NCBI GenBank assembly: GCA_029060405.1
Contig: JAIDUB010000120.1
Coordinates: forward strand, 1-39,661
Reading direction: 5' to 3'
DNA length: 39,661 nucleotides
Origin: Duncaniella sp.
Lineage (GTDB): Bacteria; Bacteroidota; Bacteroidia; Bacteroidales; Muribaculaceae
Positions 5,927-17,391 of this stretch are shown in pieces; the first letter of the stretch is position 1; each line of letters opens with the position of its first letter. The notes under the pieces are model-generated. The model was given only the letters and a program-made list of their open reading frames with translations. It was not told the origin of the DNA and searched no databases. A program made the translations under genes and the position numbers.

Positions 5927-8065
5927 ATGAATGCTTTTAGATTGCTGCTCTCAGGAGCGGCGGCACTCCCTGTGTGCCTTTCAGCGCAAGAATATACCGA
6001 TTCAATACTCTCGGAATGGGAGAAGGAATTTAATCTTAATGAAGTAGTTGTGGTCGCAAACCGTCAGGTACTTACGATGGCTCCTGACCGTATTATATAC
6101 CTCACGAAAAATGATCCCTACGCTTTGGGATTGGATGGCGTCCAACTGCTCGACCGTATTCCGCGCGTGACAGTTACAAATGATCAGGTAAGCGTGGCCG
6201 GAAAATCGTCGGTGAAATATATCATCGACGGTCATCTGCTCGAAATGCCTGATGAGGCGATAGCGCTTCGATTGAAAAATCTTCAGTCATCGGGTATCGA
6301 AAAAGTCGAGCTTCTCACCACTCCACCTGCAAAATATGCGGCTGCGGCTAATGTGGCCTACATCAGCATTACTACCCGCGACGAGTCTCATGGTACCCGA
6401 GGAAACGCGTGGGGCAACGGTACTGCGCGTGAAAGTTTCAGTTATCATATCGGAGGAAACATAAGCCATACCACGCGAAAGGTGGAGCTGTCAGCTGACG
6501 CCGCGCTGCAGAATACTGAAGGAATTAATGACCTTGACCGTGTATATTCATTCGCCGACAATGTCAGCACTTCCGACCGTACCGACCGGTTCGCCAACCG
6601 CTCTCTTGGTGTGAACGGACTATTCAAATATAAGTTCGGCAGCAGTCTCAGCGCGGGTGTCATTGTGAATTACAGCATGATAAGGCATAGAAGCAACATC
6701 GTTGACGAGACGGTCGACAATGGGATTTCGTCTTTCTCGAAGAATGATTCTCATTCACGACCGAATGATGCGATCACGCTCACTTGCTTCAGTGACTGGG
6801 CGGTTGACGATAAAGGAAAGACACTCAGTCTTACTTACAACTTCTTCAACCGATACACCCATTCGTTTTCAGATGTGGGCACATTACAGGATGGGTATGG
6901 CTTTAACAAGCTTACCGATGAAGGCGAGAACATATACCGGATTAATTCAGTGAAGCTGGATGCCGTACTGCCGTTTCCGGAATTCAGAATAGAAGCCGGA
7001 GCAGCTTTCACCGGAATAGATAACAACACTGATTTGGTAATGGAAAATATTGTGGGGGACAACAGGGTTGACAACCTGCGGCAATGTAACACGTTCAATT
7101 ATGATGAGAAAACGGCGGCAGTGTATGTGAGTGCCGAGAAGAACTTCACCAACGGTTTCTTCGGCAAACTCGGGCTGCGATTTGAGCATACCGATGTCAA
7201 AGGTATACAGCTCATCGACAATCGGCATTCCTCCAAAAGTTACTGCTATATTTTTCCGTCGCTTAACCTAAGCCGCAACACTCCCTCAGCCGGACGGCTA
7301 TCGTTGTCTTACTCCGTGGGAATCACCCGTCCCGATTTCGGTGACCTCAATCCGTTCAGATATTATACGACGGTAAGCGACTATTTCTCGGGAAATCCTG
7401 ACCTTGACCCGGGAATATCCCATAACGCGGAGATCAATTACAGCTTCAAAGGCATTTATGCCGTGCTGTATAATTCTTATGTTCATAATGCCACGGGCTA
7501 CATTACAAGATTCAATCCCGACGGAAGCCGTTACACTATTCCTGAAAACTGCCTCAACACGTGTAAGACCGGTATGTATGCCTCCTATAACCGATCGCTG
7601 TTCTCGTGGTGGAATATGAATGTCGGAGGCGAGGTATTCTACACGATTGCAAAATCCAAGGACGCGGATTTCAAGATGATTGACGACCACGGCTGGAGCG
7701 GAAAAATCGAATTTAACACCTCGTGGATGCTCAACAGGCGGAAAACCTTGATTCTTAACCTCCGCTTCAGTCATTATTTTCCATGGAAAGACAGGATGAT
7801 ACATTACTCATCGATTTCATTGACAGGCTGCGACCTGCGTTATGCATTGCTCGACGGTAGGCTGAATCTCTCCATCGCTGTAAATGATCCTTTCGGGTGG
7901 AATATCACTAAATCCAAGTCTTATTACAATGATTATGTGATCGCTACACGCAACGACATTCATTCCCATTCCGTAGCGATGAGAGTGTCATGGTCGTTTG
8001 GCGGCCGGAAAGTCAACAATGTTTACCGCGACACGAAAGAGAGCGAGTCGCGTAGGGCGTATTGA
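5927..8065 (+). CDS. TonB-dependent-receptor-like outer membrane beta-barrel protein
   Basis: A 712-aa protein. The longer frame opens with TTG at 5921, so the ATG at 5927 is chosen. The signal peptide ends near AQEYTD (about residue 20). A short N-terminal segment leads into a plug domain (about residues 38-150, with EVVVVANRQ and VKYIIDGHLL). The rest is a 500-residue beta-barrel rich in aromatic strands, ending in WSFGGRK plus a charged tail. There is no carboxypeptidase-regulatory-like domain, as in the shorter outer-membrane beta-barrel receptor group of Bacteroidota. It is the last gene of the ECF operon and so the probable target of its sigma. The ligand is unknown, and no SusD partner is present. 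Confidence 0.85.
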   Translation: MNAFRLLLSGAAALPVCLSAQEYTDSILSEWEKEFNLNEVVVVANRQVLTMAPDRIIYLTKNDPYALGLDGVQLLDRIPRVTVTNDQVSVAGKSSVKYIIDGHLLEMPDEAIALRLKNLQSSGIEKVELLTTPPAKYAAAANVAYISITTRDESHGTRGNAWGNGTARESFSYHIGGNISHTTRKVELSADAALQNTEGINDLDRVYSFADNVSTSDRTDRFANRSLGVNGLFKYKFGSSLSAGVIVNYSMIRHRSNIVDETVDNGISSFSKNDSHSRPNDAITLTCFSDWAVDDKGKTLSLTYNFFNRYTHSFSDVGTLQDGYGFNKLTDEGENIYRINSVKLDAVLPFPEFRIEAGAAFTGIDNNTDLVMENIVGDNRVDNLRQCNTFNYDEKTAAVYVSAEKNFTNGFFGKLGLRFEHTDVKGIQLIDNRHSSKSYCYIFPSLNLSRNTPSAGRLSLSYSVGITRPDFGDLNPFRYYTTVSDYFSGNPDLDPGISHNAEINYSFKGIYAVLYNSYVHNATGYITRFNPDGSRYTIPENCLNTCKTGMYASYNRSLFSWWNMNVGGEVFYTIAKSKDADFKMIDDHGWSGKIEFNTSWMLNRRKTLILNLRFSHYFPWKDRMIHYSSISLTGCDLRYALLDGRLNLSIAVNDPFGWNITKSKSYYNDYVIATRNDIHSHSVAMRVSWSFGGRKVNNVYRDTKESESRRAY

Positions 8066-8093
8066 TATCGCTGCAATTTATTATCTGATACAG

Positions 8094-8124
8094 TTGCATA
8101 TCACATGCAAAAGCCGTAATTTTG
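8094..8124 (+). promoter_or_regulatory. Promoter of the MATE transporter gene
   Basis: TAATTTTG at 8117-8124 matches the -7 consensus TAnnTTTG. TTG at 8094-8096 lies 20 nt upstream as a near -33 box. The start codon follows about 100 nt downstream. Confidence 0.55.
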
Positions 8125-8227
8125 CAGTGCTCATCGGAGGGTCGATAGTCGCAACTATTTGGCTGGATAAGATGTCGGGTGCGCCCGGTCTTTTCCGGTC
8201 ATGTTTTTTTATGTCATAATACTCGAT

Positions 8228-9565
8228 ATGAAACAGCAGGAATTAGGTCTTGATTACGGCGGCGGTAACATAGCGCGCCTCTATTTCAAAATATTTTTCC
8301 CCACATTGCTGGGAATGATATTCAATGCGCTGCTCACGATAATCGACGGCGTGTTTGTGGGACAGCGTGTAGGGCCCGACGGCATCGCTGCCGTGAATAT
8401 CATTGCCCCGTTATTTATGGTCACGACCGGAATAGGACTGATGTTCGGCATAGGCTCGTCGGTAGCGGCCGGCATAGCGCTGTCGGGTAAGAACTACGCG
8501 CGCACCAACTCCATAGTCACGTCAGGATTCATTTTCGCCACGTCGCTCATAGCGCTGCTTATCATTGTAGCATACCTTTTTACCGAGCAGCTCGTGTCGT
8601 TATTGGGCAGTTCGGCTCAGTTGCATTATCACACCACGGGATATCTGATTTATCTGCTTCCCGGATTGATTCCGCTCATGTGGCAAAGCATAGGAATGAT
8701 GTTGATACGTCTCGACGGTTCGCCGAAATATGCGATGATGTGCAACGTGATACCTGCGGTTATCAACATTGTGCTTGACTGGTGGCTGGTGTTTCCGATG
8801 GATATGGGAGTGCGCGGAGCGGCACTTGCCACGTCATTATCATGTTGCGTGGGAGGTGTGATGGCGGTAGCATATTTCCGCAGGTCATATATCATCAAAT
8901 TCACTTTCAGGATAAAGCGCTTTTGGGCTGAAGTTATCAATCAGGCCCGCATCGGTTCGGCTGCATTCGTAACCGAGATAGCCATGTCGGTTATGATGTA
9001 TACCGGCAACTACGTGTTTATGCGCAGCTTCGGCGAGAGCGGAGTGGCAGCCTACTCGATAGCCTGCTACCTGTTTCCGCTTATCTTTATGATCAACAAT
9101 GCCGTAGCGCAGTCGGCTCAGCCCATTATCAGCTATAATTTCGGTTGCGGCAGCGATGACCGTGTGAAAAGCGCGCTGAGGGTAAGCGTGCTTACGGCTA
9201 TAGTGTGCGGCTTGATAGCGTGGGCCGGCATATCGCAGGGAGCGCGGATGATAGTGTCGATGTTTATATCGCCCGAATGCGAGGCCGGACGTATCGCTGT
9301 GACAGGTTTGCCCGTCTTTGCCATCGCAGCTATATTTTTCGGGCTCAACATCACATTCATAGGCTATTACCAAAGCACGGGAAAAGCCGCTGCAGCCCTG
9401 ATGCTCACGCTGCTGCGCGGGGTGATATTTCTTGTACCCCTCTTCATCATCCTTGCCCGCATCTTTCCGGCGTGGGGAATGTGGGCGGCCATACCATCGT
9501 CGGAACTGCTCACATTCCTTGTCATCCTCACCATGTATTTCTTCAGAAAAAATCGCAAGCTGTAG
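8228..9565 (+). CDS. MATE-family multidrug/Na+ antiporter
   Basis: A 445-aa protein with about twelve membrane spans in two homologous halves, the MATE arrangement. The opening region (GNIARLYFKIFFPTLLGMIF) and the motif VGPDGIAAVNI are typical of the DinF/NorM-like branch. The ATG at 8228 starts just before the conserved N-terminus; an upstream ATG at 8201 adds nine residues and is less likely. It should export cationic drugs or other organic compounds using a Na+ or H+ gradient in the inner membrane. It has its own promoter and no operon partner. Confidence 0.9.
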   Translation: MKQQELGLDYGGGNIARLYFKIFFPTLLGMIFNALLTIIDGVFVGQRVGPDGIAAVNIIAPLFMVTTGIGLMFGIGSSVAAGIALSGKNYARTNSIVTSGFIFATSLIALLIIVAYLFTEQLVSLLGSSAQLHYHTTGYLIYLLPGLIPLMWQSIGMMLIRLDGSPKYAMMCNVIPAVINIVLDWWLVFPMDMGVRGAALATSLSCCVGGVMAVAYFRRSYIIKFTFRIKRFWAEVINQARIGSAAFVTEIAMSVMMYTGNYVFMRSFGESGVAAYSIACYLFPLIFMINNAVAQSAQPIISYNFGCGSDDRVKSALRVSVLTAIVCGLIAWAGISQGARMIVSMFISPECEAGRIAVTGLPVFAIAAIFFGLNITFIGYYQSTGKAAAALMLTLLRGVIFLVPLFIILARIFPAWGMWAAIPSSELLTFLVILTMYFFRKNRKL

Positions 9566-9653
9566 CGTAAACTGCGACACGCCGTCATTATTTTTGCAGC
9601 CATGCAGCTTGGAAATTTAGTTGTGTGGCATATGAATATTATGATTTTTTTCG

Positions 9654-9661
9654 TAGCTTTG
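9654..9661 (+). promoter_or_regulatory. -7 box (TAGCTTTG) before the structured RNA
   Basis: TAGCTTTG matches TAnnTTTG; a second match, TATTTTTG, lies at 9589-9596. Neither has a clean TTTG at the -33 distance. The first would start transcription near 9668 and could serve the structured RNA, the downstream cassette, or both. Confidence 0.4.
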
Positions 9662-9718
9662 CATTAAACTAAAAAAATAGATACGAAAAAAGAATAATAC
9701 GACTCATAACATAACGAT

Positions 9719-9734
9719 TTGCATTGACATGCAA
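9719..9734. repeat. Short inverted repeat TTGCAT-TGAC-ATGCAA
   Basis: A perfect 6-bp inverted repeat with a 4-nt spacer, immediately before the rod-like RNA fold. It could be an operator or a small 5' hairpin. Confidence 0.5.
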
Positions 9735-9741
9735 TGACCAT

Positions 9742-9885
9742 ATCTCGATTCGGTTAAATCTGGTAAATCTAACTAAGGGTCGAAGGAACCGGTCAAAGCT
9801 TGCCCGGTGCGTCCTCTACCGAGGGCACAGGCTGCTTTTTCTAATTCTTGACCCGACGGCTTTACCAGAGCCTTACCGAAGAGAT
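9742..9885 (+). ncRNA. Candidate structured RNA with a 6S-like rod fold
   Basis: A chain of ordered complementary segments folds the whole stretch into one long interrupted hairpin. ATCTC (9742-9746) pairs with GAGAT (9881-9885), TTCGGT (9749-9754) with ACCGAA (9875-9880), CTGGTAAA (9760-9767) with TTTACCAG (9861-9868), and GGGTC (9777-9781) with GACCC (9850-9854). A large internal bubble follows (9782-9794 against 9839-9849). The apical arm is AAAGC (9795-9799) with GCTTT (9834-9838), GTGC (9807-9810) with GCAC (9825-9828), and CCTC (9813-9816) with GAGG (9821-9824). A rod with a central bubble mimicking an open promoter is the hallmark of 6S RNA, known in Bacteroidales. It contains no convincing reading frame. 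It could instead be a leader of the downstream cassette. Confidence 0.55.
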
Positions 9886-9891
9886 GCAGAC

Positions 9892-9922
9892 AAAGAGTGT
9901 TGTGTCCTCTTTTTGATACAAC
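9892..9922 (+). terminator. Possible terminator with two alternative hairpins
   Basis: AAAGAG (9892-9897) can pair with CTCTTT (9907-9912), ending in a T-tract to 9914. GTTGTGTC (9899-9906) can instead pair with GATACAAC (9915-9922, one G-U pair), which places the T-tract in a loop. The two are mutually exclusive. The first would end the structured RNA; the second would let transcription continue into the cassette. Confidence 0.4.
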
Positions 9923-9977
9923 CGGAGATTGCTGAAGCCCGTCAGTCGGATGCATGATATTTTTTTGAGAAATCAAG

Positions 9978-10358
9978 ATGGCAAACTATTTTTGTAAATA
10001 TTGTGGAGCAAAAGCAAGTTCTGCATCGTCTCTTACCAGTGCTTATTGTACACGTCATCCAAACGGTACCGGCAAAGGGAAACATGTGATATTCGAAGGT
10101 GAGGAGTCTTCAAAATATATTTGTGAATATTGTGGAACCACCGCAAGTTCTATTTCATCTCTAACCAGCAGCTACTGTACACGCCACCCTAATGGAGCCG
10201 GCAAGGGAAAGCATTCTCCCTTTGAAGGCGGAATCAAAAGCAGTTATACTTGTAAGTATTGCGGCAGAAGCGCGAGCAGTTTATCATCTTTGACAAGCAG
10301 CTTATGTACGCGCCACCCTGACGGTTCAGGAAAAGGTAAGCATTCACCACTAAAATAA
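9978..10358 (+). CDS. Protein of three zinc-finger-like CxxC...CxxH repeats
   Basis: A 126-aa protein made of three copies of a 43-residue unit. Each has C-x2-C-G, then SSL(T)S, then C-T-R-H-P-x-G and a lysine-rich KGKH. Putative ligands are C6, C9, C24 and H27 (or H36), repeated at +43 and +86. The spacing C-x2-C-x14-C-x2-H suits a small treble-clef or zinc-ribbon-like fold, so nucleic-acid or protein binding is likely. I know similar units from uncharacterised gut-bacterial proteins, but not a proven function. It begins 24 nt before a KAP NTPase and probably belongs to the same operon. No signal peptide or membrane segment is present. Confidence 0.8.
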   Translation: MANYFCKYCGAKASSASSLTSAYCTRHPNGTGKGKHVIFEGEESSKYICEYCGTTASSISSLTSSYCTRHPNGAGKGKHSPFEGGIKSSYTCKYCGRSASSLSSLTSSLCTRHPDGSGKGKHSPLK

Positions 10359-10382
10359 TAAAATCATAAAAATAACATAACC

Positions 10383-12329
10383 ATGAAACTAGATAATAAA
10401 ACATCGCTTTCGGATACTCCATTCAGAGAGAATGTAAATGACTTTGGAACCGAACGGTATGTAAATGGATTGATCAAGTTTATTGAAAATTCATCAGCCC
10501 CGATTACAATAGCATTGCAAGGAGAATGGGGAAGTGGAAAAACATCCCTGATGACCCGCTTGGAACGTGCTCTTTGTTCCGAAGATAACGCGCCATTTCT
10601 CGGCGTGAATATAAATACATGGGAATACTCAATGATGTCTTCACCGGAGATGACGGTTTATAAAATTCTTGCACGGTTAGTTCGCGAATTGACTGGTGAG
10701 AATACCGATTCCAAAAAGAAGGTATCGAATTTCATGAGAGCGTTATATAGAGGCGGTCGAGAAGCAATCAAAATGATCCCGGGGATGAATATTGTCATCG
10801 AAGCGGCTAATGTGTCTACGGATCTTCCGGCTGATGATAAAGAGCCGGATAAAGATGCGTCCTTGTCGGAGTTGCGAGATGAATTGCAGCAAGTGATAGA
10901 CATCCGAATCTCGGAATCGAACAAGCGAGGAGTAATAGTGTTTGTTGATGATCTTGACCGTCTGAATCCTCCGGTCGCCGTAGAGATTCTTGAACTCCTT
11001 AAAAATGTATTTACTTTAAATAGCTGTATATTTGTACTGGCGATTGACTACGAGGTAGTAGTGAAGGGTCTTGAACCAAAATTCGGAAAATTGACCGATA
11101 AAAATGAACGGGAGTTCCGGTCGTTTTTTGATAAAATTATTCAAGTGCCGTTTTCTCTTCCGGTGAGCAGTTATCGTCCTATGGATTTTGTATTGGATTC
11201 TCTTGTGAATATCGGCTATATCAGCGGGGTAGAAAAGGGAGATGGCAGAATCAAAGAGCCATTTCGGCAAATTGTAGAATACTCCGTAGGAAAGAATCCT
11301 CGTTCGATAAAACGATTGATTAACACCTTGTCACTTCTTTCATGTATTTCCAAGTGTGGGAAAGACGATAATAATGATTTTGTCAACACGCGTGCAGGAC
11401 GTATTGCAAACTTTGCAATAGTATCCATTCAGGTCTGCTATCCGAAGATTTACAAGATGTTGGCTTTAATGCCAAACTTCTTGAAATGGGATGAAGCAAT
11501 CGCAGCCCGCATGAATATTCATATTCCAAAGGAAGAAGAGGAAAATTTCGGATGGGAAGAAATCCTTGAAGCGGCCTGTTCGGTGGATAGTTATCTATCA
11601 CAGCGACATAACGATATCCGTAATCTTCTTGTCTTGATTCAAACAACGGTAGCAACGAACAAAGATATTGAAAATACAGATTTTGAAAATAATTTAAGAG
11701 CCATGATCGACAAATCATCAGTAACCGGAATAAGTGAACCTATAGCTGAATCGGAAGTTAATCAAAAACGTCTTATAGACATTCTCCACAAGAAAGTTTC
11801 CGAATTAATTAAAGCTAAGCGACCTGATATTCCGAGAATCCAACAGAAAAGAAACACCGGAAACGGCGGCCTATTTGTATATTATCCTGATAATAAATCT
11901 ATGGAAGTAATATTCCGTCCGAAAGTGGCCAATGATAAAATCGCTTGCGAAATTACGCTCGCTACCAGTGTTGCGCGTCCACAACACTTAATCGGAAAAA
12001 CTTTCGATGATATGATGGAAAATCAAAAACTCGGTGAGGCAATGAATTCAATAGATCGCATCCTTTCTCCACTGTTGAAGGAAGTTTATTATTTTGAGGG
12101 TCGCACATATCCTGAATCAGGACTTGGAACATATTTCAATAATTTCTCACAGGAGATGAAATTCCGAGTAGATCAGGGGTGGTTGCCGGATCATGTGTCG
12201 GCTAATGCGGTCTATTGGATAAATCTCAAAAGTGAAGCGTTATTTTCCGACATTGCCGTGATAGAGACAATAGCCGATGTAATTCTTGCTGCCTATGATT
12301 ATCGATGGGCTGCAACTCATTTAAATTAG
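10383..12329 (+). CDS. KAP-family P-loop NTPase
   Basis: A 648-aa protein with a KAP NTPase domain in residues 1 to about 330. Walker A is GEWGSGKTS (about residues 47-55), Walker B is VIVFVDDLDRL (about 183-193), and the family-typical stretch IIQVPFSLP follows near residue 255. Most KAP proteins carry a membrane-span insert between Walker A and B; none is evident here, so this form is probably soluble. The C-terminal 300 residues (after about 340) show no domain I recognise. KAP NTPases occur in several phage-defence systems, for example as QatA. Here it precedes two DUF262 proteins with a 24-nt gap, in an AT-richer block than the flanking MATE gene, which fits acquired DNA. Confidence 0.88.
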   Translation: MKLDNKTSLSDTPFRENVNDFGTERYVNGLIKFIENSSAPITIALQGEWGSGKTSLMTRLERALCSEDNAPFLGVNINTWEYSMMSSPEMTVYKILARLVRELTGENTDSKKKVSNFMRALYRGGREAIKMIPGMNIVIEAANVSTDLPADDKEPDKDASLSELRDELQQVIDIRISESNKRGVIVFVDDLDRLNPPVAVEILELLKNVFTLNSCIFVLAIDYEVVVKGLEPKFGKLTDKNEREFRSFFDKIIQVPFSLPVSSYRPMDFVLDSLVNIGYISGVEKGDGRIKEPFRQIVEYSVGKNPRSIKRLINTLSLLSCISKCGKDDNNDFVNTRAGRIANFAIVSIQVCYPKIYKMLALMPNFLKWDEAIAARMNIHIPKEEEENFGWEEILEAACSVDSYLSQRHNDIRNLLVLIQTTVATNKDIENTDFENNLRAMIDKSSVTGISEPIAESEVNQKRLIDILHKKVSELIKAKRPDIPRIQQKRNTGNGGLFVYYPDNKSMEVIFRPKVANDKIACEITLATSVARPQHLIGKTFDDMMENQKLGEAMNSIDRILSPLLKEVYYFEGRTYPESGLGTYFNNFSQEMKFRVDQGWLPDHVSANAVYWINLKSEALFSDIAVIETIADVILAAYDYRWAATHLN

Positions 12330-12353
12330 AACTCTGACTAAACAGTGAGGCAG

Positions 12354-14063
12354 ATGTCTGTAAATAATACAATCACATTGGAAAAATATCTGTCACTACC
12401 TGCTGAGAATGGTAGTGACGGATTTCTCATTCCTGATTTCCAGCGCGGATATGTGTGGGGAAAATCACGAGAGAAAAAAACAAAGAATTCAGTTGAGTAT
12501 CTTACTGATTCACTGATTGATGGATTTAATTCCGGAAGGGATGTCTTTCTTCAGGGTATCACGTACACAGCAAGTGATAGCGGAATTTCAATAATCGACG
12601 GTCAGCAACGTACCACCTTTTTCTATCTCTTGTTGAAGTTTCTCGGTTATGAAGACGCTTTCAAGTTACATTATGTAATAAGAAAAGAGAGCGACGATTT
12701 CCTTATGAAACTTGATCCAGAGGCATGGAAAGAGGAGGATAAGGATTGTCAATTCCAGGATATATTCTTCTTTCAGCGCACACTGAGTATATTTCATAAG
12801 GTACTGGCTGGTATTGACAGGGAGAAGTTTAGGAATTATCTTCTCAATCATGTCAGGTTTCTATGTGTGCAGATCGCTCCTGATAAAGCTGAAACGATCT
12901 TTACGATGATGAACGGCAGTAAGGCGGAAATGAAACAGGAGGAGCTTATTAAGGCGGAATTGTTACGACGTGCATCTTTACCTTCTGATGAAATCAAGGA
13001 CGTGGAAAGTCGGGATATAAGAGGAAGAATGGCGCGCGAGTGGGATAGTTGGCTGCACTGGTGGAACAGAGAAGATGTATCGACTTTCTTTTATGCTGAT
13101 AATCAGCTTGGATGGTTGCTACCTTTATATCTCGGTAGTGAGAAGGTATCGTTTGAATCATTCCGTCGAAAACTCGACAAGAATCCCGGTAACAAAATAA
13201 AAGAAGCAAAAGAGGTGTTTCGCTCGCTCCGCATGAAGCAGCGTCAGATTCAGGATGCTTTTTATAATGCAGTGATTTACAATTATATCGGAGCTATATT
13301 GCGAATGAAGCAAAGTGCAGAGGAACGATTTACGTTTCTCCGATGGTATTTCAATACCGAGGAATCGACACCTTCCTACGCAAAGATGAAAAAACTGCGA
13401 CGCTATTTTGACTTGGCAGTGATTGGCTGTAACCATAGTGAGATAACGGGAGCAGCAACTGATGAGCAGGTCAGCCAAAAGATCAGAGATTTTCGTGATG
13501 CACTCGACGGTATCATTTATAAATCATTTTATGAAGGCGGAAGCCGCTGGCTATTGAGACGCAACATACTTGAAGATTGCAACCAAAACGACGGTAAAGG
13601 TCGTAAATTCAATTTCGATATATGGAGTTGCCGCTCACTCGAACACATTTATCCCAAGTCGAAATTCGGTCACTACAATCCTGAGCGTCCCGATGTATGC
13701 CTTAACCATAAAGACGAGGAGATAGATAAGGAAAAATGCGAAATATTCAGAGGCATGCCCGGTGATAAAGATTATGTGAACGAACACCGGATAGGTAACC
13801 TTGTGCTCCTTTATGGCGACGATAATTCAAAATTCGGCGCTAAAGATTTTCAGCAGAAAAAAGATGATTTCTTCAATGTGGGAGAAGGTAATCGCCATTT
13901 TGAGAGCCGTCATCTTATTCATACCATTTCGGTTTTCGCTTCCTCAAAGTGGACGAAAGCTGAGATAATTGAACGTCAGAAAAAAGAACTTGCTGACTTT
14001 GATGCGGCATATTCAGAATATAAATCAACATCAGAAAGTAATATAGAAAATGAAGAAGCATGA
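12354..14063 (+). CDS. DUF262 plus DUF1524 (HNH) GmrSD-like restriction nuclease
   Basis: A 569-aa protein. The frame opens with GTG at 12345; the ATG at 12354 is preferred. The N-terminal DUF262 (ParB/sulfiredoxin-like NTPase) has IPDFQRGYVWG near residues 25-35 and the signature IIDGQQRTT near 80-88. The C-terminal DUF1524 has SLEHIYPKS near 427-435 and HRIGNLVLL near 478-486, followed by an asparagine-containing NSKFG: the His-Asn-His pattern. This is the architecture of GmrSD, a type IV enzyme that cuts DNA with modified cytosines, and of SspE. It is 24 nt downstream of the KAP gene and overlaps the next gene by 14 nt, so the proteins are likely made together. Target specificity cannot be read. 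Confidence 0.88.
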   Translation: MSVNNTITLEKYLSLPAENGSDGFLIPDFQRGYVWGKSREKKTKNSVEYLTDSLIDGFNSGRDVFLQGITYTASDSGISIIDGQQRTTFFYLLLKFLGYEDAFKLHYVIRKESDDFLMKLDPEAWKEEDKDCQFQDIFFFQRTLSIFHKVLAGIDREKFRNYLLNHVRFLCVQIAPDKAETIFTMMNGSKAEMKQEELIKAELLRRASLPSDEIKDVESRDIRGRMAREWDSWLHWWNREDVSTFFYADNQLGWLLPLYLGSEKVSFESFRRKLDKNPGNKIKEAKEVFRSLRMKQRQIQDAFYNAVIYNYIGAILRMKQSAEERFTFLRWYFNTEESTPSYAKMKKLRRYFDLAVIGCNHSEITGAATDEQVSQKIRDFRDALDGIIYKSFYEGGSRWLLRRNILEDCNQNDGKGRKFNFDIWSCRSLEHIYPKSKFGHYNPERPDVCLNHKDEEIDKEKCEIFRGMPGDKDYVNEHRIGNLVLLYGDDNSKFGAKDFQQKKDDFFNVGEGNRHFESRHLIHTISVFASSKWTKAEIIERQKKELADFDAAYSEYKSTSESNIENEEA

Positions 14064-16233
14064 GTTGCTCCGCAACGGAGAAAAGTATCCTTTGAAAGAT
14101 TTCTTCTCGGGCATAAATGAAAAGATTATTATTCCTGATCTGCAGCGTGACTACTGCTGGGGTGACTCGAATCTGGTGGAGAAATTTGTAGATTCGTTAT
14201 TGAAACTCGACCGGAATCAGCCTATCACATTGGGACTTATCTACGGATATGTCGATAATAATCTGATAGCCGAGCACTTGCAGCTGTGTGACGGTCAGCA
14301 GAGATTGACCACCATATTCCTATTGTTGGGTCAGCTTTACAGGCTTACCGGTGAAGACATTATAAAGCAGCATCTTATCTCGGATTTCGAGCTTAATAAT
14401 GATGACAGAGAGCCTTATCTGCTTTATGCAATTCGCGAAAGCTCTCTTTATTTTCTTTCGGATCTGACTTATTATTATTTTCTTGGTAACGGTAATATTA
14501 AGGCTGCCTCAGAAATAGAGAATCAACCTTGGTTTTTGGATAGCTATCGTCAGGATCCGTCGATAAAGAGCATGCTTGAGGCTTTGAGGACCATAGAGCG
14601 TATGCTCGGCAATAATCCTGATGCCGAAATGATTAAAGGCTTTGCCTCATTCATGCTCGATAAGGTGGAGTTTCTGTATGTGGATATGAACAATCGTCGC
14701 GACGGAGAGGAGACGTTTGTGATAATAAATACCACCGGAGAACCACTTACTTCAAATGAGAATGTTAAGCCTAAGGTTATCCGGGCCAACCGATCCATTG
14801 CCGACATAGCTTCAAAATGGGAAAATATGGAGCAATGGTTTTGGATCAATCGTAATAAATCGGCAAGACCCGAACATACGTCCGACGAAGGTTTTGAACA
14901 GTTTGTGAGAGTCGTGAAACTCATGCAGGCCACCTCCGATGACGATTATATTTTCATTCGTGGCAACGTTGAAAATATACAACTTGAGGATATACCGTTT
15001 AATGTCATCGAGGATACTTTTAAGGCCTACAAGCGGGTGTGTAGTATCGGCGGTTATGAAAAACGATATGATGAACGCCCCGATTATACCGACGGTTATT
15101 CCGAGAAAGATCTGTTTTCACTGTTGCCTACCGTGAGATATGTGATGCAATTTCCCGAGTGCATGGATGAGGATATTCTGCGGGTATTTCATATTTTCCG
15201 TAATAATGCACGATACAGAAATACTGATGTCAATAATACCGATCATATTGCTCCGGCCTACAGGGCTATGGCTAATGTGGAGGCTATGACAAAATCTGAG
15301 CCCGCTGATATTTTCAGCTCATCATACATGCCTGCCGATGAGCGCCGAAAGAACGAGCAGTTGAATCTTTGGCTTTCGGGTAGGGATCTGTCAGAATGTC
15401 AGCCTATAGAGAGCATACTCGCTAGGGCTGAGAATAACAAAATATTCCGTGGGCGAATATCAAATTTCTTAGATTGGACTGGCGGCGATGAAAGCAAAAT
15501 GAAATTTTATGTCGACAGATTTGACACGTTATGGCCTGTTTACAGCGGCCATGACCTAGATACACTGCGGCGTGCACTCTTGTGCCTGAATCTTTCGGAA
15601 TACCCTTTGAAATATCCCGGAAAAGGTATCAATACCTTCTGCAATGAGGCCGAACATTGGTATTCACTTATTAATATTGATGATAATAGTGTAAAGATCA
15701 AAAACTTACTCGATGAAAGCAGAACTCTTGATGAAATAATCGAATGTGATTCGGAGAAGGCCGGAAAATTTACAGAACTTGTAACCCATCCCGAATGGTG
15801 GGAGCGAATGGAGCGTGCCAATGTGCTGATCTACAATGATAATCTGTATGTCTTGTTAAGAAAAGAGCGCACATCATCTGATTATTGGCTTATATATCAC
15901 GGCGAGTCATTCGGATCTAACTATTTCGGTAAAGGATGGGCTGGCCTATGGAAGTATGATAATAATAACGGATTGTATTGCGATAATCATATCTATGATG
16001 TTACCATAGATCTCGAATATACGGGTAACTCGTTTAGACTGATCTTAAGTGAGTGGAAGCACAAGGATAAGCCGTTATTGCCTGATCTACAAGATATAGC
16101 CGAACAATTCAATATGGTTCATTATGATAGGTTTACGCGGGCGTTTTCGTTGGAACTGCCAACGGTCGACTCTATAAAAGAGTTGTCAAAGAAGGTTGCA
16201 CTTGTAATATCTGAGGCAGCATCCATAACTTAG
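14050..16233 (+). CDS. Second DUF262 protein, without an HNH domain
   Basis: A 727-aa protein whose N-terminus is DUF262: IPDLQRDYCWG near residues 28-38 and LCDGQQRLTTIFLL near 79-92. A helical middle follows. The C-terminal 200 residues (with WLIYHGESFG and KGWAGLWKYDN) are not DUF1524 and carry no HNH motif. It starts inside the end of the HNH-bearing partner (14-nt overlap), a sign of translational coupling. A nuclease-competent and a nuclease-lacking DUF262 protein side by side suggest a heteromeric complex in which this one senses or regulates. The novel C-terminus could be a target-recognition module; that part is inference. Confidence 0.85.
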   Translation: MKKHELLRNGEKYPLKDFFSGINEKIIIPDLQRDYCWGDSNLVEKFVDSLLKLDRNQPITLGLIYGYVDNNLIAEHLQLCDGQQRLTTIFLLLGQLYRLTGEDIIKQHLISDFELNNDDREPYLLYAIRESSLYFLSDLTYYYFLGNGNIKAASEIENQPWFLDSYRQDPSIKSMLEALRTIERMLGNNPDAEMIKGFASFMLDKVEFLYVDMNNRRDGEETFVIINTTGEPLTSNENVKPKVIRANRSIADIASKWENMEQWFWINRNKSARPEHTSDEGFEQFVRVVKLMQATSDDDYIFIRGNVENIQLEDIPFNVIEDTFKAYKRVCSIGGYEKRYDERPDYTDGYSEKDLFSLLPTVRYVMQFPECMDEDILRVFHIFRNNARYRNTDVNNTDHIAPAYRAMANVEAMTKSEPADIFSSSYMPADERRKNEQLNLWLSGRDLSECQPIESILARAENNKIFRGRISNFLDWTGGDESKMKFYVDRFDTLWPVYSGHDLDTLRRALLCLNLSEYPLKYPGKGINTFCNEAEHWYSLINIDDNSVKIKNLLDESRTLDEIIECDSEKAGKFTELVTHPEWWERMERANVLIYNDNLYVLLRKERTSSDYWLIYHGESFGSNYFGKGWAGLWKYDNNNGLYCDNHIYDVTIDLEYTGNSFRLILSEWKHKDKPLLPDLQDIAEQFNMVHYDRFTRAFSLELPTVDSIKELSKKVALVISEAASIT

Positions 16234-16268
16234 TTAATTGAACTTCCCCTGTCTGGCGGTGGTCATAA

Positions 16269-16571
16269 TGGAGTCAACTGCTCAAATTATTAACGCCACT
16301 GCCTGACTATGGAAATTCGCGACTGGATAGTGCAGACTACCGGTTCTCGAAATATTTCAGAGCAATAGGTTGGCGTCTCGCGGTGATAGATCTTTCCATG
16401 GACAATATCTATGACCGTCTTATTGCGGCGCTTACGGAGATTCAGCGCATGGATCTTTTGTCGACGCCCCTGCAGGTACAGATGGCGCTCTTTGCATTAT
16501 TCTGTCTTATAGATAAGGACGACGCTTATCCTTATTACCAAAATACCATCCGCCCCTGCCGTAACCAATAG
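16269..16571 (+). pseudogene. Open frame with coding character, probably a gene remnant
   Basis: The frame is open for about 100 codons but has no ATG near its beginning; the first usable start is GTG at 16383, giving 62 aa. The translation looks protein-like (SKYFRAIGWRL, then NIYDRLIAALTEIQRMDLL) and has an amphipathic helical end. A separate short frame begins with ATG near 16309 and stops at once. I recognise no family. The best reading is the tail of a broken gene left beside the cassette. It may also be random. Confidence 0.35.
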
Positions 16572-16594
16572 CGACAGGGGCGGATGATGTTTTT
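16551..16594. terminator. Bidirectional terminator between convergent genes
   Basis: CCGCCCCTG (16551-16559) pairs with CAGGGGCGG (16576-16584), followed by TTTTT at 16590-16594 on the plus strand. On the minus strand the stem is followed by ATGGTATTTTGG, a weaker T-tract. It can end the plus-strand cassette and the leftward glycosyltransferase operon. Confidence 0.8.
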
Positions 16595-16614
16595 ACAAGC
16601 GGACAACACACCGC

Positions 16615-17391
16615 TTATTTTTTCAACTTCTGCTTCAATTTGAATATATTTACTTCGCAGAATTTATAGATGTAACGTACCGCTTCATGGAAGATTGACG
16701 AGAATATGCCGTTTTTCTTATAAGCGCGCAGATGATCTTTCAGAATCCGCTTATGGCTGTTGAACCCCGATGTCGAGGCGCCGCCCTTGCGCATAGTGAC
16801 AAAATCTTTGGGAAGGTAACGTGTGGAAATATCGTGGATAAAGATGGCACGAAGAAGAAATTCAAAGTCCGATGCTACATGAAACGAGGGATCAAACAGA
16901 CCGAAATCATCGTAGACTCGTCGCCAGCAGTAAAATGATGGATGAGCCGGCATGAAGCCGTAGCGCATCATCCAGCGGCGGAATGATTTTGAGCTGTAGA
17001 CGCGCACGGTTTTAGTCAGATTATTTGGCAGGACATAATGAATGTCGCCATACACAGCGTCGACATCGGTGATTTCTCTGACCACAGTAGCGAGAATATC
17101 ATTTGAGGAGTAGAAATCATCAGAATTCAATATCCCTACAATATCGCCGGTAGCCATGGCGATACCTTTGTTCATGGCATGATATATACCCTCGTCGGGC
17201 TCGGAAATCCATTTCAGCCTGCCTTTGAACTTCGGCTCATACATACGGACTATATCCATAGTGTCGTCAGTACTGGCACCATCGACCACGATATATTCTA
17301 TGTCATCATACGTCTGCGCCAGAACACTATCGAAAGTGTCCTTTACCGTCTTACCGCTATTGTATGTCGCTGTGATGATTGAGACAGTCAT
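16615..17391 (-). CDS. Glycosyltransferase family 2
   Basis: A 258-aa GT-A-fold enzyme that transfers a sugar from a nucleotide donor during polysaccharide synthesis at the cytoplasmic face. Visible motifs are the N-terminal strand SIITATYNSG, the donor-binding VDGASTDDT (about residues 36-44) and the metal-binding NSDD (about 89-92). An acidic SDFEFLLR further on probably holds the catalytic base. The basic C-terminus may lie against the membrane. It is the last gene of the leftward polysaccharide operon, 43 nt after the GT4 gene, and its stop lies next to a terminator. Sugar specificity is not readable. Confidence 0.9.
   Translation of the reverse strand: MTVSIITATYNSGKTVKDTFDSVLAQTYDDIEYIVVDGASTDDTMDIVRMYEPKFKGRLKWISEPDEGIYHAMNKGIAMATGDIVGILNSDDFYSSNDILATVVREITDVDAVYGDIHYVLPNNLTKTVRVYSSKSFRRWMMRYGFMPAHPSFYCWRRVYDDFGLFDPSFHVASDFEFLLRAIFIHDISTRYLPKDFVTMRKGGASTSGFNSHKRILKDHLRAYKKNGIFSSIFHEAVRYIYKFCEVNIFKLKQKLKK

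Follow-up and report, generated by a model that had tools for sequence, protein, structure and literature searches.

The window analysed here, a stretch of 39,661 nt from a Duncaniella sp. contig, contains four genes of the forward strand that apparently form one operon. According to mechanical gene calls these are ZR, encoding a zinc-repeat protein (9978-10358; 126 aa), a gene for a KAP NTPase (10383-12329; 648 aa; Pfam KAP_NTPase, 3e-40), the TgvB-like DUF262-DUF1524 (HNH) gene P0003, with a GTG start (12345-14063; 572 aa), and the TgvA-like, DUF262-only gene P0004 (14050-16233; 727 aa). In the ORF map they are separated by gaps of 24 nt and 15 nt, followed by a 14-nt overlap. The four genes and their common strand had been proposed in a first-pass annotation, with which both the ORFs and the Pfam domains agree. 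That annotation also described the block as AT-richer than its neighbours; this applies to the left flank (46-49% GC at 6-10 kb, compared to 39-43% in the cassette block at 10-16 kb), but not to the right one (35-45% at 16-22 kb).

The ZR protein contains C-x2-C...C-x2-H repeats, three copies of 33 residues that recur every 43 residues, and has no hydrophobic N-terminus. The KAP protein carries GEWGSGKT and VFVDDLDR, the Walker A and Walker B motifs, which are conserved among its orthologues; its C-terminal third is variable (alignment of 14 sequences), and its highest 19-residue hydropathy mean is 1.80. P0003 matches Pfam GmrSD_N (1e-19) and GmrSD_C (4e-12), and P0004 matches GmrSD_N (7e-24) but not GmrSD_C. 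The motifs of both proteins are intact (DFQRGYVWG, DGQQR, FTMMN [FxxxN] and EHIYPK...GNLVLL in P0003; DLQRDYCWG, DGQQR and FVIIN [FxxxN] in P0004), and residues H434 and N485 of P0003 are invariant across 13 aligned rows. A PDB sequence search returned weak matches only; those of P0004 were led by a DUF262 protein (6e-7) and SspE (0.003).

The corresponding cassette at locus L024, in the Duncaniella MAG G588, encodes proteins 95, 96, 92 and 85% identical to those of the window, in gene order. Identity of P0004 falls from 97.5% in residues 1-80 to 54% in residues 641-720 (window 15970-16209). By this comparison the P0004 C-terminus is hypervariable, as might be expected of a target-reading or phage-contested part. 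Behind the cassette, L024 retains intact Asp-Al_Ex antiporter and aminotransferase genes in front of a glycosyltransferase gene (6633-9997), of which only remnants are present in the window (16234-16459).

The distribution of the cassette genes was examined in 297 Muribaculaceae genomes. This search yielded 16 KAP orthologues (at least 46% identity, best piece), two of them split into pieces; three weak matches, and relatives of 43% identity in G458 and G459, were excluded. In six of the 16, ZR is the gene immediately before KAP (the window genome G000, G588, G461, G398 and twice in G603). A DUF262 gene follows KAP directly in six of the 12 cases with a readable downstream side (G000, G588, G578, G463, G398 and G603:C168), contig ends intervening in G606, G442, G532 and G515. 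Co-occurrence is therefore well above chance. In contrast, the cassette is not one fixed four-gene set: all four gene types occur together in only three of the 297 genomes (G000, G588 and G398; a fourth candidate, G603, is interrupted by a contig end), and the other six of the 12 readable KAP genes have different neighbours. A 281-295-aa protein follows KAP in G461, G603:C50 and G656 (L086 8043-9832, L095 11094-11948 and L098 11490-13234), with a WYL protein behind it in two of them; the two of these three proteins that were tested had no Pfam match. The remaining neighbours are an opposite-strand gene (G655) and an unrelated ORF (G562, G460). KAP relatives were also found outside Muribaculaceae, in 9 further genomes of 393 from the same order, near none of which did BLAST detect ZR or DUF262 genes, and in viral sequences (four relatives, all distant; DUF262 relatives occupy 73 viral loci).

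ZR, too, occurs apart from the full set. It is present at 15 places in Muribaculaceae, several of them solitary and with signal-peptide-like starts. In G666, on a Hymenobacter plasmid, on a Myroides plasmid and in a viral contig it stands directly in front of DUF262 genes, with KAP absent. At five other Bacteroidota ZR loci, no DUF262 or KAP gene lies beside it. ZR-KAP is a separable module. Two of the ZR genes without KAP are followed by a single DUF262 protein (L148 8040-10037, viral contig; L139 8001-9998, Myroides plasmid). The same zinc repeat is present in five secreted-looking proteins, their signal-peptide-like starts recognized by eye, whose genes have no DUF262 or KAP neighbour (L130 6325-6783, L131 8237-8731, L132 8535-9125, L133 8839-9282 and L136 8840-9196). 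A WYL protein and, next to it, a small exonuclease-like protein (named by eye) are encoded near ZR or DUF262 genes at four loci (L103 6971-8395, L134 2326-3750, L152 4727-6145 and L033 4770-6217).

The DUF262 pair also stands without ZR and KAP, at eight loci with adjacent genes (one on a Segatella plasmid) and two with interrupted pairs. A tree was made of 21 HNH-DUF262 proteins, of which five are KAP-linked. The latter require four changes, at least three of them forced by well-supported branches, although shuffled labels need as few in 170 of 500 cases and the changes may be losses. The KAP-linked window type is firmly separated from that of L093/L090, and L089 is placed on a long branch. 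Since the KAP-linked proteins sit apart on this tree, KAP precedes DUF262 genes of two or more clearly distinct types, through repeated joining or exchange, and this suggests a functional link between KAP and DUF262 proteins.

Such a link is also part of the model given in the first-pass annotation, in which the four proteins form one undescribed complex: the HNH protein cuts under the control of KAP, sensing is left to the other DUF262 protein, and ZR recognizes a target. The close, co-directional and overlapping genes are consistent with this model, as are the different DUF262 types behind KAP and the ZR genes placed directly before DUF262 genes in the absence of KAP. The other neighbours of half the readable KAP genes and the eight solitary DUF262 pairs argue against it, as does the protection conferred by TgvAB as a two-gene system, described in the portion of PMC11411939 available to us. 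A single complex is therefore possible, but doubtful. P0003 and P0004 most likely constitute a type IV restriction enzyme that would cut phage DNA with modified bases.

Directly upstream of the operon, in a feature that the first-pass annotation had missed, the window encodes a structured leader RNA of 212 nt (9709-9920, forward strand), composed of a 5′ hairpin, a long interrupted rod with conserved internal loops and a 3′ hairpin. Its minimum folding energy is -71.8 kcal/mol, compared to -54.3 kcal/mol for shuffled sequences (z = -4.0). The box TAGCTTTG (9654-9661, forward strand) matches TAnnTTTG, the Bacteroidota -7 promoter consensus, and transcription of the leader would be expected to begin immediately downstream. 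Near the 3′ end, a hairpin formed by AAAGAG...CTCTTTTT and accompanied by a U-tract (9892-9914, forward strand) resembles a terminator. It would compete with a second hairpin, GTTGTGTC...GATACAAC (9899-9922, forward strand), and the two may act as a switch. The competing hairpin shows a compensatory UA to CG change at one pair (two of nine rows), but it is not kept in every subgroup of the leader family described below (54% of cells paired in the hold-out set), other 3′ folds occurring elsewhere.

The leader is 82.8-89.9% identical in six KAP loci whose KAP proteins are only 51-59% identical; in a seventh, L024, the leader and KAP are, respectively, 97.5% and 96% identical to those of the window. 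In these seven other KAP loci the shared leader stretch covers about 215-275 nt ahead of the operon. No leader was detected at eight of the 16 KAP orthologues, one of which lies beside ZR (L095). The identity of the leader with a known Rfam family was rejected: none of 16 sources tested gave an Rfam 15 match, neither the window region 9550-16700 (at E 1) nor the leaders of 15 further loci (at E 0.1), the four matches listed for the latter falling elsewhere. The Rfam DUF805b cis-regulatory motif occurs just past the leader in L220 (4573-4605) and L243 (3261-3293; below the gathering score).

Two covariance models were built, R1 from eight sequences and R2 from 50 members; the window, which is within both training sets, scored 250 and 203 bits, respectively. 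When applied to 63 loci, R1 matched its own eight strongly and L136 and L135 weakly. At E 0.001 it detected the leader in 70 of the 297 Muribaculaceae genomes, and from this genome list 40 places, and later 39 more, were drawn. The resulting 91-member set includes L135 and L101, matched weakly by R1 or R2 (26-40 bits). R1 also revealed a second leader copy in the same Duncaniella genome, ahead of a PvuRts1I-like gene, where a blastn-type search had recovered the window copy only. R2 matched two of 76 other loci (1.05 Mb), blastn searches of plasmids with the window and L211 leaders gave no match, and in viral stretches a strict leader pattern was not found, while a looser one occurred 15 times, none of them matched by R2.

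In the alignment of 50 members, 89.8% of cells are paired and 51 of 62 pairs have changed on both sides. The covariation score is 0.484, a value reached by 0 of 500 shuffled alignments (0.195) and compared to at most 0.097 for slid ones. Applied to a MAFFT alignment of 38 members that had not been fitted to the model, RNAalifold keeps 20 pairs, 13 of them with two-sided changes. R2 recognizes 39 members outside its training with 46-120 bits (L101 with 40 bits). In the hold-out alignment (43 rows, three of them antisense matches, with 40 distinct members counted), 55 of 62 pairs have changed on both sides, a count equalled by two of 500 shuffles, and the score is 0.557, compared to 0.155 for shuffled alignments; since these members were found with R1 and aligned to R2, their pairing is partly selected for and not fully independent. 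Alignment-free folding gave a mean z of -6.0, with 88 of the 91 members below -2 (15 shuffles each). A coding leader was rejected, the longest complete ATG ORF being shorter than 30 codons in 82 of the 91 members (30-63 codons in the other nine).

The leader occupies a constant position. In 87 of 88 loci (49/50 and 38/38) the gene 3′ of it lies on the same strand, mostly within 100 nt, while the gene 5′ of it does so in 34 of 49 and 26 of 37; no downstream gene is readable in L192 (of 51 leaders) or in L247 and L271 (of 40). The single opposite-strand case, L201, involves a doubtful 90-aa ORF followed by a 229-aa same-strand ORF. A conserved, covarying RNA thus precedes same-strand genes. The structure and same-strand position of a cis-regulatory leader are joined, in part of the family, by a putative promoter: 20 of 48 members carry TAnnTTTG between -125 and -80 relative to a fixed anchor (0.042 per shuffled stretch). 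A C(Y)TTTT tract near the leader 3′ end is present in 85 of the 91 (0.10 in shuffles).

BLAST sorts the 87 first genes on the same strand into 45 families; representatives were compared with Pfam (30 proteins, including some encoded by second or third genes) and PADLOC (20 proteins). One family of 12 is PvuRts1I-like, with an SRA domain; PvuRts1I prefers 5hmC. Eight leader-borne operons contain KAP, with ZR or KAP first. A DUF262 pair stands behind the leader at L202, and UDG superfamily proteins are encoded by the first gene in L221 and L226 and further in at L220 and L222 (the L222 match being below the Pfam cut-off). Other leader-borne genes encode PDC-M15A/B (L216), an EcoRI-type methylase (L256), a dynamin (L270), BspA-type repeats, DUF4595 and RibD_C. 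Since 15 of the 87 first genes look secreted, with signal-peptide-like starts, and some encode BspA-type repeat proteins, the leader is not specific for defence; a link to KAP alone or to defence alone was rejected on the wider use seen in the family scan and the hold-out set, secreted proteins included. In related bacteria the leader precedes many unrelated accessory genes, several of them likely DNA-targeting defence genes. In L199 (517-3159) two leader copies stand in tandem with different genes behind each, one of them tubulin-like. A transposase-like ORF on the same strand, which by eye we take to be of the IS1595 type, is located 5′ of the leader and PvuRts1I-like gene in L205, L210, L213 and L215. 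UDG-type proteins (Brig1-3) are described as phage defence in the portion of PMC13160076 that was available.

Taken together, these observations make it probable that the window feature is a leader-controlled accessory operon, in which a cis-acting RNA precedes ZR-KAP and a TgvAB-like pair, likely a two-part defence cassette. A promoter near 9654 would give rise to a transcript with the structured RNA within its first 250-300 nucleotides. The leader would act in cis, the choice between the 3′ U-tract hairpin and the competing hairpin being the decision point, and its 3′ end would set whether RNA polymerase or ribosomes proceed into the genes. ZR-KAP would then most likely sense or regulate in a nucleotide-driven manner, the zinc protein being the partner that binds nucleic acids, while the TgvAB-like pair would most likely perform type IV restriction of phage DNA with modified bases. 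A more far-reaching proposal, which we regard as tentative and rather unlikely, is that the promoter-leader module represents a new riboswitch-like class across Muribaculaceae that responds to stress or to a sign of phage attack (perhaps a nucleotide pool that is unbalanced or contains modified nucleotides) by turning on the operon behind it. Its targets would be above all systems against modified DNA (PvuRts1I-like, GmrSD/TgvAB-like and UDG-type), with KAP-ZR as a shared front module.

Alternatively, the RNA might be a trans-acting partner, a processed non-coding RNA that takes part in the working of the systems it precedes and to which ZR, KAP or other proteins bind. RNA binding by zinc repeats is known, L136 has a diverged leader in front of a ZR gene that lacks KAP, and 24 leader positions, many in loops, are invariant across 38 members, which exceeds the needs of a simple attenuator. 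However, ZR is the first gene in only six of the 87 leader loci, and no common protein partner is encoded, because the first genes span 45 families. The constant orientation and mostly short distance also fit cis action, and a trans-acting role is thus unlikely.

Closely similar leaders are combined with unrelated operons, and modules are mixed. Among 167 leader pairs at least 80% identical, the first-gene family differs in 84, a count somewhat inflated because small leading ORFs, and ZR-first versus KAP-first operons, count as different. Near-identical leaders stand before different operons in L216/L222 (99%), L226/L227 (97%), L214/L215 (95.5%) and L204/L210 (95%). In 10 of 11 pairs the block shared at the leader extends only from about -64/-184 to +188/+239, comprising promoter plus leader; it is the sole shared block in seven of the 11, the remainder also sharing pieces further off. 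Another alternative is that the leader is primarily a device of the DNA, either a small mobile element or a folded site of recombination, by which accessory operons are exchanged and in which the fold would aid recombination. The 84 mixed pairs and the tandem units of L199 might suggest this, as might L216 and L222, which have 2.9 kb of upstream sequence and the leader in common and then diverge. It was rejected as the main reading and is very improbable, given that G-U pairs outnumber C-A pairs (277 versus 104) and the pairing is therefore that of RNA rather than DNA, that 20 of 48 members have the promoter box at a set distance, that 87 of 88 next genes share one orientation and that no terminal repeats were seen by eye at the block borders in four groups.

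How bacteria time the expression of costly DNA-cutting systems is largely an open question. A single RNA family stands before dozens of accessory operons, and the present genome has two such operons (the cassette and the PvuRts1I-like gene). If the leader is a cis-acting switch, as we favour, the signal of one leader RNA may reveal the conditions under which defence and surface genes are turned on as a set. Use of the leader as a marker for finding new accessory and defence genes is also conceivable.

With respect to known systems, the first-pass annotation had presented the cassette as a candidate undescribed defence system. A defence role is plausible and the set is unnamed in PADLOC-DB and NCBIfam; the DUF262 pair, in contrast, has a described counterpart in TgvAB. 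Searching the literature for DUF262 together with KAP NTPase gave no paper, neither leader nor cassette is reported among the matches listed in the literature searches, and the portion of PMC9122126 available contained nothing relevant on KAP. PADLOC gave partial matches only: ZR had none, the best for P0003 was HEC-06, with SspE also matched (5e-8), the best for P0004 was SspE (6e-14), and KAP resembled the defence KAP NTPases PifA (3e-29), PDC-S20 (5e-26) and QatA (5e-21). PifA is a phage-exclusion protein. Membership in Qat was rejected, the QatA score being 84 bits against a cut-off of 600, with no QatB, QatC or QatD among the other three operon proteins.

In the available portion of PMC11411939, TgvAB is presented as a system of two genes that belongs to the GmrSD family of type IV restriction. 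It protects against phages with modified cytosines, for which each of the two proteins is required, as are the DGQQR motifs and the residues of the HNH domain. The window pair resembles it in its adjacent genes, in the DUF262 motifs of both proteins (QR, DGQQR and FxxxN) and in the C-terminal DUF1524 HNH domain (His-Me nuclease) of P0003 alone. It differs in that the HNH gene comes first and that ZR, KAP and a structured leader precede the pair. The leader, for its part, resembles the orphan leader RNAs and riboswitch candidates of the screen in PMC8040213, which, in the part of that source available, are likewise conserved, covarying RNAs before genes, found by comparison. It differs in the 45 first-gene families behind it, several of them DNA-targeting, and in having no Rfam 15 match in the 16 sources tested; the window leader may itself be among the many candidates of that screen.
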